Shown: piece after piece, positions 3,272 to 11,830 of the stretch
How the letters are laid out: every line of letters starts with the position of its first letter
Position numbering within the stretch: position 1 is the first letter of the stretch
Assembly: GCA_020437395.1 (NCBI GenBank)
Contig: JAGQWJ010000001.1
Location: forward strand, 120,699-184,698
Length of the DNA: 64,000 nucleotides
Source: Ignavibacteriota bacterium
GTDB taxonomy: Bacteria; Bacteroidota; Ignavibacteria; Kapaibacteriales; UBA2268
Direction of reading: 5' to 3'
Notes under the pieces: model-generated
The model's database searches: none
What the model was told of the DNA's origin: nothing
Seen by the model: the letters and a program-made list of their open reading frames with translations, nothing else
Program-made: the position numbers and the translations under genes

Positions 3272-4423
3272 CTAGTCTATAAACTCGATTTTGATGTAAG
3301 AGTTATTTACGTCACATGATTGAAAATTCCAATTAGTGTAATGACCTAAGCAACCATAATTTGAATATATCTGATTCTCTGATGAAATCATTGCATTTAG
3401 CTCTTTATAGAACTCAAATATTATATTCTCACTACTCAAGCTATAAGTTACTGATTTTTCGAAGTTAAACACCAAAAACTGCGATTCATCATGAAATCCA
3501 TATATATTACCAGTCCTTACATTAGATTCTTTAGTTAATCTAAAATTGCTAATAGTTTGATTCAAAGTGTCTATATCAAATTGAATCTTATGCTTATCGA
3601 AATTGTATTCATCTTCATTTTTATAATATTTCACTAGATTTACTTTACCATTTCTTATAACCAAAGTATCAATTAAAATCTCTGTAATGTCATTACTACG
3701 GGTATATTTTATTTCTGGATCCTGATGTACTTTTATGCTATAATCCGAAATATAGTTTTTAATAAATAAAGTCACCCTAATATGTTTTCCATCAAAAGCA
3801 CTAGTTATAGTTGACATATCCAACTCAACAACGGTATCCTTTGTTAGAGCTTTGGTATAGTAATTCTTAGGTTTGAAGCCATCAGAGTAGATAGTAAAAC
3901 GATAGTCAAATTGTGATTGTACTTCGTTTTCTTTTACCAATGAGCTGGGTGAATTAGATGAAGATAGTAGCCGTATATCTTGTCCATTGCTTGGTGTATT
4001 TTTTACAAAAGTTTGTGATTTGTTTCCTGTTCTAATAGCATATACACCTTGGGGTAAACCTGCAACATTGAGTGATACATTTCCTGAAATTACGGTTGAA
4101 GATTTATAGTGGACTTTGCCACTAATATCGGAGACTACTAGTTCAGAACTATTAGTATTGATGTTTAGAATATCTTCCACAGGGTTAGGGTAGAGCTGTA
4201 AACTATATTCATTCGTCTGCTCTTCTACCGAGCTTACTGTCTCGAAGAAAAGTGAATCAGTTAAGTATAGCTTCTCTTCACCAGTATTCATATCGTGGAC
4301 TAATATGCTATCTATTGGTAATTCTTCATTATAATACCTATCCATTGCTACAAACTTAATGGAATGGGACCAGAGGGGTGAAACTATGAGTAGAAACGCG
4401 AATATGATTAATAGCTTTTTCAT
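3272..4423 (-). CDS. Secreted protein with internal T9SS type A-like domain (tandem paralogue B)
   Basis: 383 residues. A signal peptide (to about SHS, residue 21) is followed by a short beta domain (about 22-70), then a complete sorting-type module at about 77-141: LYPNPVEDILNI, DISGKVHYKS, LPQGVYAIR. About 240 more residues follow, whereas true T9SS sorting domains sit at the extreme C-terminus. The first 203 residues match the upstream neighbour at about 180 positions; the rest is strongly divergent until the shared last nine residues (SYIKIEFID). Its ATG shares one base with the upstream stop (TAATG), implying translational coupling. Function unknown; an exported or surface protein is the safe reading. 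Confidence 0.7.
   Translation of the reverse strand: MKKLLIIFAFLLIVSPLWSHSIKFVAMDRYYNEELPIDSILVHDMNTGEEKLYLTDSLFFETVSSVEEQTNEYSLQLYPNPVEDILNINTNSSELVVSDISGKVHYKSSTVISGNVSLNVAGLPQGVYAIRTGNKSQTFVKNTPSNGQDIRLLSSSNSPSSLVKENEVQSQFDYRFTIYSDGFKPKNYYTKALTKDTVVELDMSTITSAFDGKHIRVTLFIKNYISDYSIKVHQDPEIKYTRSNDITEILIDTLVIRNGKVNLVKYYKNEDEYNFDKHKIQFDIDTLNQTISNFRLTKESNVRTGNIYGFHDESQFLVFNFEKSVTYSLSSENIIFEFYKELNAMISSENQIYSNYGCLGHYTNWNFQSCDVNNSYIKIEFID
3815..4423 (-). repeat. Conserved 5' module of tandem paralogues, copy B
   Basis: This 609-base segment encodes residues 1-203 of paralogue B. It is nearly identical to 4972-5580, with long exact stretches (for example around 3815-3880 against 4972-5040). Similarity drops abruptly at the codon after VELDM. 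Confidence 0.8.
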
Positions 4424-5580
4424 TAGTCTATAAACTCGATTTTGATGTAGGATTTGGCTCTATCAAAGGAACCAAATGAAGTGAAATCGAAATGACCTGG
4501 ACAATTATAAGAAGTAATTTCTTCTCTACTATAATTATGCTCGAAATCGAATTTATCTAAACTAATTAGGAGAAAAACTCTATTACCATCATTATAATCA
4601 ATTGAATTAGCAAAAGAAAAACTATAATTCAATTCATCAACATATGATTTAGAATCATCATTCTTAAAATTCCGATAATTATTGTTATAATTCATATTCA
4701 AAATTGTTTTATTCATTGTATCTATCAAGAAATCTAATTTATTCGAATGATACTTAGAAGTTCCTTGATTCTCTTCTTTATAAAATAACTCGATTTTATT
4801 ATTTCTAATTACTATTGAATCCTCATATTCAAAGCTTCTATCTTCAATTTCATTTTTATAAATATAGTTACCTTGTGTGTAATGAGAATATGAAGAGTAT
4901 TTAACATCAACATCTTTCAAATAAATTTCAAAGCGCATCTTGTTACCAAAAAGAGAAATACTATTGGCAATCATATCCAACTCAACAACGGTATCCTTTG
5001 TTAGAGCTTTGGTATAGTAATTCTTAGGTTTGAAACCATCAGAGTAGATAGTAAAACGATTGTCAAATTGTGATTGGACTTCGACTTCCTTTACCAATGA
5101 ACTTTGTGAATTAGACGAAGAAAGTAGCCTTACATCTTGTCCATTGCTTGGTGTGTTTTTTATAAAAGTTTGGGATTTGTTTCCTGTTCTAATAGCATAT
5201 ACACCTTGGAGTAAACCTGCTACATTGAGTGAGACATTTCCGGAGATTACGGTCGAAGATTTATAGTGGACTTTGCCACTAATATCAGAGATTATTATTT
5301 CAGAACTATTAGTATTGATGTTTAGAATATCTTCTACTGGATTGGGATAAAGGTGAAGACTATTTTCATTCGTCAGCTCTTCTACAGAGCTTACAGTCTC
5401 GAAGAAAAGTGAATCAGTTTGGTATAGCTTTTCTTCACCAGTATTCATATCGTGGACTAATATGCTATCTATTGGTACTACTTCTTCATAATACCTATCC
5501 ATTGCCACAAACTTAATGGAATGTGACAAGAGGGGTGAAACTATGAGCAATAATGCGTATATTAATATTAAGTTTTTCAT
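4423..5580 (-). CDS. Secreted protein with internal T9SS type A-like domain (tandem paralogue A)
   Basis: 385 residues and the first gene of the two-gene unit with 3272-4423. Same layout: signal peptide, beta domain, sorting-type module at about 77-141 (HLYPNPVEDILNI, DISGKVHY, QGVYAIRTG), then a variable region from residue 204 on rich in Asn, Tyr and Asp. The variable regions of the two copies still share a C-x-GH spot (NCPGHFDF here) and the identical tail SYIKIEFID, so they are diverged versions of one fold rather than unrelated domains. Function unknown. Confidence 0.7.
   Translation of the reverse strand: MKNLILIYALLLIVSPLLSHSIKFVAMDRYYEEVVPIDSILVHDMNTGEEKLYQTDSLFFETVSSVEELTNENSLHLYPNPVEDILNINTNSSEIIISDISGKVHYKSSTVISGNVSLNVAGLLQGVYAIRTGNKSQTFIKNTPSNGQDVRLLSSSNSQSSLVKEVEVQSQFDNRFTIYSDGFKPKNYYTKALTKDTVVELDMIANSISLFGNKMRFEIYLKDVDVKYSSYSHYTQGNYIYKNEIEDRSFEYEDSIVIRNNKIELFYKEENQGTSKYHSNKLDFLIDTMNKTILNMNYNNNYRNFKNDDSKSYVDELNYSFSFANSIDYNDGNRVFLLISLDKFDFEHNYSREEITSYNCPGHFDFTSFGSFDRAKSYIKIEFID
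4972..5580 (-). repeat. Conserved 5' module of tandem paralogues, copy A
   Basis: This is the partner of 3815-4423. By eye about 180 of 203 encoded residues are identical, and most differences lie in the signal peptide and residues 32-97. Confidence 0.8.
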
Positions 5581-5663: not shown

Positions 5664-6776
5664 CTAATCCCTAGGTATATTTCTATCGTCAACTTTTGTT
5701 GAGGTTTTTAGCTCATGGTTGAAACGAAGATCGTAGTAATAGTCGGCTTTGGGTAGTGGTATTACCATTGTTCCTGATTTGTCAACAAATCCAACTTGCT
5801 CACCATCAACAACCCATGCAAGTCCGTTTTCTCCAAAGCTCTCGGCATAGTCAAAATTCTTACTAAACAAGAATTGACCTGTAGAGTCTATATATCCCCA
5901 TCTGCTGCCGTACATAACTACTGCAGCACCATTTCTAAAGCTCTTAGCGTGATCAAACCGAAAATCAGTTATCTGCAAACCCTTACTGTCTAACATTGCC
6001 CATCTCATCACATAATTATCATCATAGAATCCAGCCATTGTTCTGTCTTCATTCATATTATAAGCCTCATCATAGATTTTTTGAATAGTAACAACACCAT
6101 ATTTATTTATGAAACCAATTTTACCAGTAGCAGTATCGGCAACTCGAGCTAATCCATTGTTAAAATTTGAAGGGATATCTAATATAAAATCGATAATCTG
6201 GTTCCCTTCTTTATCGATGAACCCAACTTTATAATTATCATTAGAAACTGCTGCAAGACCTTCGCTGAATGCGTAACCGACAATATTCTCATCAAGTGGA
6301 ATAGCTATTTTTCCAGATTGATCTATATAACCACGTTCACCGTCTTTCATAACATAAGCCAGTCCTTCGCTGAAACTCAAAGCATCTCTATACTGAATTT
6401 CTTTGAACACCTTACCTGTTGAATCTACGTAGCCAAATTCGAACATTTCTTCTTCGGGGTTGACGGGATTGAAAATAACAGCTTTACCTTCATTGAATGG
6501 AACGCCCTGTTCAGCATTTGTCCTAATTTTTATTTTGCCTGTATTGTCAAAATACACCCATGTCAGTTTTCTATCAAGAATAACCTGAGCTCCAATTAGC
6601 CCTTCTGAATAACCACCAACATCAGTGATTCCACCAGCCCTAAACATCTGTTTACCATCGGAATTGATAAATGTCCATTCCTGCCCTTGTTTATAAGCGA
6701 CCAAGGGAGTTTGTGCAAATGAATCAAAAATAAATAAAGCAAATATTGAAATTAGTAGTGTAAATTTGAGTTTCAT
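5664..6776 (-). CDS. WG-repeat protein, exported
   Basis: 370 residues with a signal peptide (ending about SFAQ, residue 22) and at least six WG-type repeats, seen as recurring W/F/YG-F/Y-I/V-D-x-x-G units such as GYIDQSGKIAIPL, GFIDKEGNQIIDF, WGYIDSTGQFLFS and VGFVDKSGTMVIPL. WG-repeat proteins form beta-propeller-like binding scaffolds, and their partners are mostly unknown. A Bacteroidota-type -7 element lies upstream at 6851-6859. There is no sorting domain, so a periplasmic or inner-surface location is more likely than T9SS export. Confidence 0.85.
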   Translation of the reverse strand: MKLKFTLLISIFALFIFDSFAQTPLVAYKQGQEWTFINSDGKQMFRAGGITDVGGYSEGLIGAQVILDRKLTWVYFDNTGKIKIRTNAEQGVPFNEGKAVIFNPVNPEEEMFEFGYVDSTGKVFKEIQYRDALSFSEGLAYVMKDGERGYIDQSGKIAIPLDENIVGYAFSEGLAAVSNDNYKVGFIDKEGNQIIDFILDIPSNFNNGLARVADTATGKIGFINKYGVVTIQKIYDEAYNMNEDRTMAGFYDDNYVMRWAMLDSKGLQITDFRFDHAKSFRNGAAVVMYGSRWGYIDSTGQFLFSKNFDYAESFGENGLAWVVDGEQVGFVDKSGTMVIPLPKADYYYDLRFNHELKTSTKVDDRNIPRD

Positions 6777-6927: not shown

Positions 6928-8403
6928 ATGGCAAAAGAATTAAGTGTTTTGTTTGTTACTCCCGAGGTATATCCTTTTTCGAACGAAACTACGATCGCGG
7001 ATTTTTCTTATTCGTACACGTTAGCTCTCCGAGAGTTAGGACATGACGCAAGGATAATGATGCCCAAATTTGGAAATGTCTCGGAAAGAAGAAACAGAAT
7101 ACATGAGATCAACAGGTTGAAAGAATTGACATTCGATATGGGGGGTGAGCAGATTATTGGCTCAATCAAATCTTCATCGATAAGTAATTCGAGAAACAAA
7201 GTACAAGCATATATAACGACAAATCAAAACTATTTTGATTCGTTCAAAGGTGCATATCATGATCAAAAGACATGGGAAGAGCATCCTGATAGTTTAGAAA
7301 GATTTATATTCTTCAGTAAAACAGTAATCGATACATGTGTTTTGCTGAATTGGTTCCCACAAGTTATTCACTGTTTTGGCTGGCAAACTGCACTTATTCC
7401 TGCCTATGCTAAAACATTATATCCTAAAGAATTCAAAAAGACAAAATTTGTATTCACAACAAATGATTTCGCTGATCAGGGAATAGCCAAAATTTCAAAA
7501 TTTGGACTTTTGGGTTTACCAGATAAAATGAAAACAGACTTCACTTTCAACAAAGAATTGAATATGATGAAAGGTGGTTTGATCTATGCCGACAAGATAA
7601 CAACAATTAGTGTTGGATACGGTGAAGAAGTACTCAAAGATGAGTCGTTGTCAAACGGATTGATCAAAAAAATAACGGATTTCAAAAAGAAATTTGCTGC
7701 AATTGACAGCAGAATAGACACTTGGACTTGGAATCCTTCGCAAGATGACACTTTGGTAGCAAAGTATGATGAAGAATTTGTCGATTTCAAATATCACAAT
7801 AAAGTTGATTTGGTCAACAAATTTGGATTAGAGTTCCATCCGAAAACTCCACTTATTGCAATCAATGTAAAAATAGATAATAAGCAAGATTTGAAACTTT
7901 TTATCGATTCAGCCGATACTCTGTTTAAAGAAAATTTACAAGTTGTACTTTTGGGTCCTGGTGATAAGGAATTGAAAAAAGAATTAGACGCTATAGAGAA
8001 AAAGTATCCTTCTAAATTCAAATTCAAACTAGGGTTCTCTGAGGCATTGAACTCGGAAGTGGAAGCTGGCAGCGATATGTATTTGATTACTGCTGAAAAG
8101 CCAACAACCGCAGCTAAGTTTATGCAAGCCTGCTTATATGGCTCTGTTCCGATTGTTCACAACGCAGGGATAATAAAAGAACTTGCTGAGCCGTTCAATG
8201 ACGAAGAATTCGAAGGAAATTCATTTTTATTCGAAGAGTACACAACGGAATCGTTGATGGAAGCGGTAAGAAAAGCGTTAGAACTTTTCAGCGATAAAGA
8301 TGATTGGATTACAATAGCTAGAAATAGTATGCTTGAAGATTTCAGTTGGAAAGAAAACATAAAGCAATACGACAGTTTATATAAAAAGCTTTTTAAAAGT
8401 TAG
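6928..8403 (+). CDS. GT5 glycogen/starch synthase-like protein, catalytic motifs degraded
   Basis: 491 residues, the usual size of bacterial GlgA. The N-terminus (VLFVTPEVYPF, then LALRELGHDARIMMPKFGN) and VIHCFGWQTALIPAYAK clearly match the GT5 starch-synthase catalytic domain, and a second Rossmann half follows from about 300. The residues that make the family work are missing. The KxGG loop that should follow PEVYPF reads NETT. The Arg-Lys segment of the second domain (normally GRLxxQKG) reads NVKIDNKQ. The E-x-x-GL motif reads KPTTAAKF. Glycogen synthesis from ADP-glucose is therefore doubtful; a structural or regulatory role is more likely. It heads a tight cluster with the two envelope genes downstream. 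Confidence 0.75.
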   Translation: MAKELSVLFVTPEVYPFSNETTIADFSYSYTLALRELGHDARIMMPKFGNVSERRNRIHEINRLKELTFDMGGEQIIGSIKSSSISNSRNKVQAYITTNQNYFDSFKGAYHDQKTWEEHPDSLERFIFFSKTVIDTCVLLNWFPQVIHCFGWQTALIPAYAKTLYPKEFKKTKFVFTTNDFADQGIAKISKFGLLGLPDKMKTDFTFNKELNMMKGGLIYADKITTISVGYGEEVLKDESLSNGLIKKITDFKKKFAAIDSRIDTWTWNPSQDDTLVAKYDEEFVDFKYHNKVDLVNKFGLEFHPKTPLIAINVKIDNKQDLKLFIDSADTLFKENLQVVLLGPGDKELKKELDAIEKKYPSKFKFKLGFSEALNSEVEAGSDMYLITAEKPTTAAKFMQACLYGSVPIVHNAGIIKELAEPFNDEEFEGNSFLFEEYTTESLMEAVRKALELFSDKDDWITIARNSMLEDFSWKENIKQYDSLYKKLFKS

Positions 8404-11158: not shown

Positions 11159-11830
11159 TTAACTAATTATATTACCGTCTTCCATCACTATTATTCTGTC
11201 GGTCTTGTCTGCAAAATCTTGATCATGAGTTACGATAAGAAGTGAAAGGTTTTGCTTTGTACTAAGGTCTTTGAATATATTAAACACATTTTCGGAGTTT
11301 TTCGTATCTAAGTTTCCGGTAGGTTCATCACCCATTATAATAGCAGGGTCGTTTATCAAAGCACGAGCTATTGATACTCTCTGCTTTTGCCCACCAGACA
11401 GCATCGAAGCTTTTTTGTCAGCTTGTTCTTGTATCCCTAATAGTTCTAATTTGTCGTAAGCATCTTGTCTTATTTCTTTGTAACTTTTCTTACCTAATTT
11501 ACGAGCTGGAAGCATGACATTATCGAGTACTGTAAACTCGGGTAGCAAATAGTGGAATTGGAATACAAACCCTATGTGCTCATTTCTTATCACAGCTAAT
11601 TCTTCATGTGGGCGACCAGTTACTAATTCACCTGCCAAATGTAATTCTCCCGAGTAATCCGTATCCATAGTAGAAAGGATATAAAGCAAAGTTGATTTAC
11701 CACAACCAGATTTACCCATAATAGAGACAAACTCACCCTCGTCAATTGAAAAAGTGATATCTTTCAATACGTGGAAATCAACAGGGTTACGGAAGTGTTT
11801 ATTTATTTTTTTTGTTTCTAATACTTTCAT
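11159..11830 (-). CDS. ABC transporter ATPase, LolD/MacB type
   Basis: 223 residues, a single nucleotide-binding domain. Walker A is GKSGCGKST (39-47), the ABC signature is LSGGQKQRVSIARAL (144 on), Walker B is AIIMGDEP, and the switch His is in LLIVTHD. Close to LolD in length and motif spacing. It begins one base after the permease stop and is the last gene of a fusion-protein/permease/ATPase run. It would power lipoprotein release or efflux of a periplasmic substrate. Confidence 0.9.
   Translation of the reverse strand: MKVLETKKINKHFRNPVDFHVLKDITFSIDEGEFVSIMGKSGCGKSTLLYILSTMDTDYSGELHLAGELVTGRPHEELAVIRNEHIGFVFQFHYLLPEFTVLDNVMLPARKLGKKSYKEIRQDAYDKLELLGIQEQADKKASMLSGGQKQRVSIARALINDPAIIMGDEPTGNLDTKNSENVFNIFKDLSTKQNLSLLIVTHDQDFADKTDRIIVMEDGNIIS

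Follow-up and report, generated by a model that had tools for sequence, protein, structure and literature searches.

We examined the locus around a glycogen/starch synthase (GT5)-like gene in the window, that is, the whole stretch of 64,000 nucleotides analysed here (Table 1). The gene is the first of a three-gene run, GT5-bamH-bamG, whose flanking genes are divergent on the upstream side (5664-6776) and convergent on the downstream side (11159-11830). A Flavobacterium-type promoter pattern, in what we take to be its usual form, occurs 5 times in the window against 4.0 expected and 0 times before 6928. The divergent gene, on the minus strand, encodes a WG-repeat protein with six repeats (Pfam) and occupies that place at only 3 loci, all of the window's genus, among 53 fetched. 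Elsewhere on the minus strand, two genes sharing one base (3272-4423 and 4423-5580) encode tandem, clearly similar proteins; the first contains a type IX secretion sorting domain (Pfam), and the second resembles its N-terminal half by eye.

Table 1 Features of the GT5-bamH-bamG run, in window coordinates
Feature	Position	Strand	Remarks
GT5 (glycogen/starch synthase)-like pseudoenzyme gene	6928..8403	+	491 aa, internal stops absent
NETT in place of the KxGG loop, residues 19-22	6982..6993	+	E. coli GlgA alignment, alignment columns
Most constrained block, residues 40-155; R42, G49, E53, R54, H59, R63, L64, K81, Q93, N99, E124 inside	7045..7392	+	
G151 at active-site Asp column (E. coli D137)	7378..7380	+	alignment
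N179 at His column (E. coli H161)	7462..7464	+	alignment
K315 and Q320 at Arg and Lys columns (E. coli R300, K305)	7870..7887	+	alignment
P392 at Glu column of ExxGL (E. coli E377)	8101..8103	+	alignment
bamH-like (DUF4270-type) surface lipoprotein, 414 aa	8407..9651	+	starts 3 bases past GT5 stop; lipobox IIGC
bamG: FadL-like outer membrane BAM subunit, 408 aa	9648..10874	+	start overlaps bamH stop by 4 bases

The third gene of the run encodes BamG by sequence, matching PDB 9n2d_B ('Bam G', E 2.2e-20) and 9hjm_F (E 5.6e-13), with an NCBIfam NF053685 score of 219.2 bits, below the cut-off of 250. The second product is probably BamH, judging from its position, its lipobox and a weak profile match: an IIGC lipobox is read in the sequence, the gene adjoins bamG, and the family profile (A2, bamH-like) finds as its best PDB match the DUF4270 protein 9his_G, weakly (E 0.019). 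The protein itself scores 35.6 bits for a DNRLRE domain, and Pfam DUF4270 (PF14092) has no match in the window genome. A same-class relative (G151) carries a weak PF14092 match, below the cut-off, directly after its GT5 gene, and the protein following GT5 at another locus (L112) matches PDB 9n2d_C at E 1e-10. In Flavobacterium anhuiense the protein after GT5, the single Flavobacteriaceae product tested, is 9n2d_C 'Bam H' (E 2e-187). The bamH and bamG genes downstream, the linkage across the phylum and the truncated relatives are context absent from an earlier note on this gene, made from the sequence.

The 491-aa protein belongs to GT5 by sequence (PF08323, 175.5 bits, cut-off 22.7) and has GT-B length, and E. 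coli GlgA (3d1j) aligns end to end with its residues 6-488 (E 5e-44). Against the 175.5 bits of the GT5 N-domain, the C-domain matches poorly (Pfam Glycos_transf_1, 34.3 bits). The TIGR02095 score, 332.3 bits, barely exceeds the cut-off of 328.45; by this score the protein would be labelled glycogen synthase in an annotation pipeline. Hydropathy reveals no signal-peptide-like or transmembrane-like stretch. An AlphaFold model made from an alignment of window and related-locus sequences reached a mean pLDDT of 58.3 and was excluded from our conclusions.

None of the eight active-site positions checked retains the canonical residue: N19, T21, T22, G151, N179, K315, Q320 and P392 stand at the columns of E. 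coli K15, G17, G18, D137, H161, R300, K305 and E377, respectively, where the columns come from alignments and the E. coli numbers are those we take to apply to GlgA. The exchange of R300 for K315 is conservative. Thus, of the features checked for a glycogen/starch synthase, the protein has neither the KxGG loop, nor the C-domain residues R300, K305 and E377, nor the N-domain residues D137 and H161, whereas 18/18 canonical GlgA proteins of the phylum keep all eight in the alignment. The same eight changes are found in 4/4 genus genomes examined (the window's included), which makes a sequencing error unlikely. The earlier note had described a protein missing its catalytic motifs, with the segments NETT, NVKIDNKQ and KPTTAAKF in their place; all three are present as quoted, and the loss was indeed understated, since the replacement of D137 and H161 had gone unmentioned.

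An intact canonical GlgA with all eight residues is encoded in the same genome on a different contig (G000:C81; L240, 8564-10030). Three weak matches to glgC models, none over the cut-off, were found in this genome, and there was no match to TIGR01515, the branching-enzyme model searched; at these thresholds, the canonical GlgA thus has neither gene alongside it in the genome. Among second GT5 copies from degenerate-lineage genomes (n = 10, two of which also belong to the canonical set of 18), 8 keep all eight residues, 1 has T at K15 and 1 is cut by the contig. For the window protein, the genes that would make up a glycogen context (glgC over the cut-off, and glgB as represented by TIGR01515) are likewise missing, and we saw no intact glycogen operon using it, the case that the earlier note had named as refuting its reading; the neighbours are bamH- and bamG-like. 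We therefore rejected an ordinary glycogen synthase that tolerates its motif changes: the TIGR02095 score slightly above the cut-off speaks for it, but with 8/8 active-site positions changed and the glg genes missing (glgC over the cut-off, TIGR01515 branching enzyme), its probability is close to negligible.

To place the gene among its relatives, we surveyed its order. GT5 matches are present in 60/60 genomes (the window's own included), with at least two matches, some of them fragments, in 56/60; the closer copy shares 36-91% identity with the window protein and the other copy about 25-29%. Order-level loci were obtained for 53 of the 54 full-length closer copies outside the window genome (G010 is missing), and the bamH and bamG HMMs were built from these loci, themselves found with window proteins. 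The arrangement is GT5-bamH-bamG at 44 of the 53, GT5-bamH at 2, and without bamH by HMM at 7 (L038, L057, L068, L071, L073, L075 and L076); L057, L071, L073 and L075 each encode a fully intact GT5 protein, and the L076 locus is at the end of a contig. GT5 and bamH are always on the same strand, with gaps of -82 to 366 bases. We define a bamH-linked GT5 family by position and by seven residues (R42, E53, R54, H59, R63, K81 and Q93); the window protein carries all seven and its gene immediately precedes bamH on the same strand, with a 3-base gap. A survey of relatives with the same neighbours, which the earlier note had proposed as a check on the catalytic loss, turned out only partly favourable: 54/79 full-length linked copies keep R300, K305 and E377, and 41/79 keep all eight residues. 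The majority of copies in the order still have most of the catalytic residues, which may therefore have been required for the ancestral role.

The linkage extends through the phylum. At 25 further full-length loci (L120-L142, L157 and L158, the last from the window's order), bamH is found downstream by HMM in 23, mostly with one gene between, and bamG in 19; at the two bamH misses (L136, L140) an unconfirmed lipoprotein ORF lies nearby. A GmhB-like phosphatase gene, identified by regex, follows GT5 in 21/25 of these loci, either between GT5 and bamH or simply after GT5 (for example L133 3493-4098 and L140 4426-4998), in relatives at class and phylum level; four GmhB-like proteins tested score 121-146 bits with NF006506 against a cut-off of 178. 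A further family (f23), which appears to be Chlorobi-like, has a GmhB-like phosphatase gene after GT5 in 4/4 loci (for example L143 3469-4062) and no recognised bamH alongside. Its four aligned GT5 proteins (L143-L146) are without K15, GG, R300 and K305, and are either not normal synthases or working differently. By E-value the best NCBIfam match of protein P0001 is PRK14098 'starch synthase', presumably a Chlorobi model. Exceptions to the pairing include 7/53 order loci, this family and, on the DUF4270 side described below, 4/41 loci.

The GT5 of the Chlorobi-like family is the genome's only one in 10/10 genomes searched, which bears on whether the window protein could pair, in a regulatory or structural capacity, with the cell's active GlgA (a pseudoenzyme-enzyme pair). 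An intact GlgA in the same genome, and the 56/60 close-set genomes with two or more matches (own included, some fragments), are as such a pair would have it. However, the window gene and the canonical gene are on different contigs, the neighbours are bamH and bamG with no glycogen genes, and a lone linked or truncated copy also occurs in G113, G101 and G127 (one match each) and in G196 (one GT5). Genomes that show only a linked or truncated copy make it unlikely that such proteins generally act together with GlgA, and we regard this explanation as improbable for the window protein.

In Flavobacteriaceae the GT5 product is reduced to one domain of about 270 aa. At the best 20 DUF4270 loci, an N-domain-only GT5 of 256-318 aa lies directly upstream in 20/20, and overall GT5 is upstream in 37/41 DUF4270 loci examined, the four without it being G061, G066, the G078 copy shown in L259, and G198. 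These 41 come from 56 DUF4270 rows, from which 13 were left out for GT5, one was a second G110 piece, and G151 was counted among the full-length loci. Conversely, among the matches listed, DUF4270 is next to GT5 in 79/80 titled loci, nearly all from Flavobacteriaceae, with L187 as the miss. KxGG is kept in 0/15 aligned truncated proteins. Modelling of the Flavobacterium truncated form gives one GT5 N-domain closed off by a C-terminal helix (pLDDT 79.2, pTM 0.83), and the nearest PDB entry is the glycogen synthase 1rzu_B; the model suggests that the truncated form may have arisen by internal deletion of the C-domain. In 13 regions near truncated GT5 genes (L262-L274), panC is present in 10 and glmS in 9; six of these regions (L262-L267) were chosen because rfaE was known to be near.

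One alternative is that the window protein has kept enzymatic function through a re-made active site, as a transferase or hydrolase with another donor or chemistry, for example one tied to ADP-heptose, whose GmhB-like and RfaE genes lie close by in other lineages. The GmhB-like gene after GT5 in 21/25 further loci and 4/4 Chlorobi-like loci points in this direction, as does rfaE domain II (heptose-1-phosphate adenylyltransferase), which in family f2 is the next gene past bamG, on the opposite strand, in 5/5 loci fetched (L080, L081, L082, L085 and L158), and the window's order keeps a full-length C-domain. Against this, the window genus has lost every one of the active-site residues K, GG, H, K and E, and the N-domain-only forms are without the C-domain altogether. 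GT5 is a retaining family, and the ADP-heptose of LPS is a beta-linked donor. In addition, rfaE domain II is present in 55/60 genomes (own included), among them degenerate and window-genus ones, which argues that donor loss is not the cause of decay. ADP-heptose as the cause was accordingly rejected, since the presence of rfaE domain II does not track GT5 integrity and serves as a neighbourhood clue only. Taken together, we consider a re-made enzyme unlikely, though it is the foremost of the alternatives.

A tree built from 105 full-length sequences sets the linked group apart from canonical GlgA and places the Chlorobi-like family inside the linked group. The number of clades losing at least one of R300, K305 and E377 is 7, with 5 losing at least two and 4 losing at least five of the eight residues; the Chlorobi-like family is counted each time, and the counts, which assume no regain, are approximate because the tree is a 'quick' one with motif columns kept and an outgroup that is not monophyletic on rooting. 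Catalytic residues have thus been lost repeatedly, while a second set of residues in the N-domain persists. R42, R63 and Q93 are present in all of 111 family sequences (15 degenerate, 59 near-intact and 37 truncated), followed by R54 (99%), L64 (98%), H59 (97%), G49 (95%), N99 (92%), K81 (89%), E124 (87%) and E53 (86%); five of the 79 linked rows, in an intermediate motif state, fall outside the 'degenerate' and 'intact' groups. In the 18 canonical GlgA proteins the same set is found at 0-28%, with R42, R54, R63 and Q93 at 0-6%, although E. coli GlgA has Arg at the R42 and R63 columns, and those two are not unique to the family. Entropy in the C-domain versus the N-domain is 1.78 versus 1.22 in degenerate copies, 1.77 versus 1.48 in near-intact copies and 1.47 versus 1.44 in canonical GlgA. 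The residue set kept in intact, degenerate and truncated forms, together with this entropy contrast, points to a shared constraint in the N-domain that is independent of the catalytic residues; as the N-domain is also better conserved in near-intact copies, the contrast is not special to degenerate ones.

Within the genus, the linked GT5 is under strong purifying selection and is more conserved than the intact GlgA. Pairwise identity is 89-97% for linked GT5, compared with 82-93% for canonical GlgA, 81-91% for BamH and 82-90% for BamG. Variable columns in linked GT5 number 60/491 overall and 5/116 in block 40-155; in canonical GlgA there are 106 overall and 28/116 in the same block. NG86 dN/dS for linked GT5 is 0.022-0.034, where G002-G003 is the sole sound pair (dS 0.62, dN/dS 0.022), as dS exceeds 1 in every other linked-GT5 pair and some methods returned no estimate. 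A pseudogene was rejected, as the ORF is open in four genomes and dN/dS is about 0.02-0.03 (one sound pair). The replaced active site, the strong purifying selection and the intact GlgA elsewhere in the genome together support the earlier note's proposal of a full-length pseudoenzyme retained for another job. The same data address whether the gene is a passenger, kept for the upstream promoter or coupled translation of bamH while its own product is irrelevant. The 3-base spacing to bamH and the 4-base bamH/bamG overlap do suggest translational coupling, but a dN/dS of about 0.02-0.03 shows selection at the amino-acid level, residues are conserved in intact, degenerate and truncated forms alike, and GT5-bamH gaps vary from -82 to 366 bases; we consider a passenger role very improbable.

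The explanation we favour, with somewhat better than even confidence, is that the window gene encodes a cytosolic GT5-derived protein that is no longer a synthase and is retained with bamH and bamG for outer-membrane biogenesis, where the outer-membrane link comes entirely from gene neighbourhood and the mechanism is our inference. The ancestor was probably a working ADP-sugar transferase; in lineages that could do without its chemistry, decay of the catalytic residues or deletion of the C-domain would have followed. The N-domain would then be the working part: a site made up of R42, E53, R54, H59, R63, K81 and Q93 may be where a partner protein or a small phosphorylated ligand binds, and the domain could serve as a scaffold or sensor through which envelope sugar metabolism is tied to the production of BamH and BamG. 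Such a tie to envelope sugar metabolism is proposed because GmhB-like, RfaE domain II and GlmS genes neighbour GT5 in other lineages. Extended to the phylum, the 'glycogen synthase' would be an unrecognised cytosolic outer-membrane-biogenesis factor of Bacteroidota, which abandoned its chemistry several times (by point changes or domain deletion) while keeping a second N-domain binding site, and which serves BamH/BamG production or LPS-BAM coordination; we put the chances of this broader proposal at about even.

The subunits BamG and BamH have been described recently, in 2025 (PMC12611786, PMC12578637). As far as the accessible portions of these two papers go, the Nature paper (one of the two) assigns BamG to Fjoh_1412 and BamH to Fjoh_0823, with the complex deposited as 9N2D; both are reported to be required for BAM function in F. 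johnsoniae, and in B. thetaiotaomicron BamG is reported as probably essential and BamH as important, not essential. No GT5-like subunit is listed in the published BAM complexes in those portions, and the word 'glycogen' is absent from the main texts of both papers. Absence from the subunit lists is as expected for a cytosolic protein, and equally for an unrelated one. In the excerpt of PMC12578637, BamH is BT_4306, which BT_4307 adjoins by number. BT_4307 appears as a 'putative glycogen synthase' in a table of B12-probe data (PMC8941943, table entry) and is read as a hint of possible glycogen storage (PMC10797578, in the passage concerned). Our literature search, with supplements and figures outside it, found only passing mentions of BT_4307 and no study of its role. 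The bamH-linked GT5, read as a glycogen synthase phylum-wide, would be a further, cytosolic candidate alongside BamG and BamH, and, if our reading is true, annotations such as BT_4307 as a glycogen-storage hint (PMC10797578, same passage) would be corrected. The family also presents one GT-B fold that repeatedly loses its chemistry while the gene stays under strong selection.

Compared with known systems, the window protein is like GlgA (E. coli 3d1j, A. tumefaciens 1rzu) in its length, end-to-end alignment and GT5 N-domain, and differs from it in the replacement of eight active-site residues, in having bamH and bamG rather than glg neighbours, and in the extra set of N-domain residues. Relative to the Bacteroidota BAM complex (PMC12611786, PMC12578637), the genes downstream in the window correspond to BamG by sequence and probably to BamH, whereas the GT5-like protein is not among the subunits described in the portions available. 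Its closest counterpart in arrangement is the GT5-like protein of about 270 aa that precedes bamH in Flavobacteriaceae, to which BT_4307 of B. thetaiotaomicron is likened by locus number only: the two share the same position, the N-domain and the conserved residues, and the shorter protein has no KxGG in 15 aligned, whereas the window protein retains the whole C-domain.
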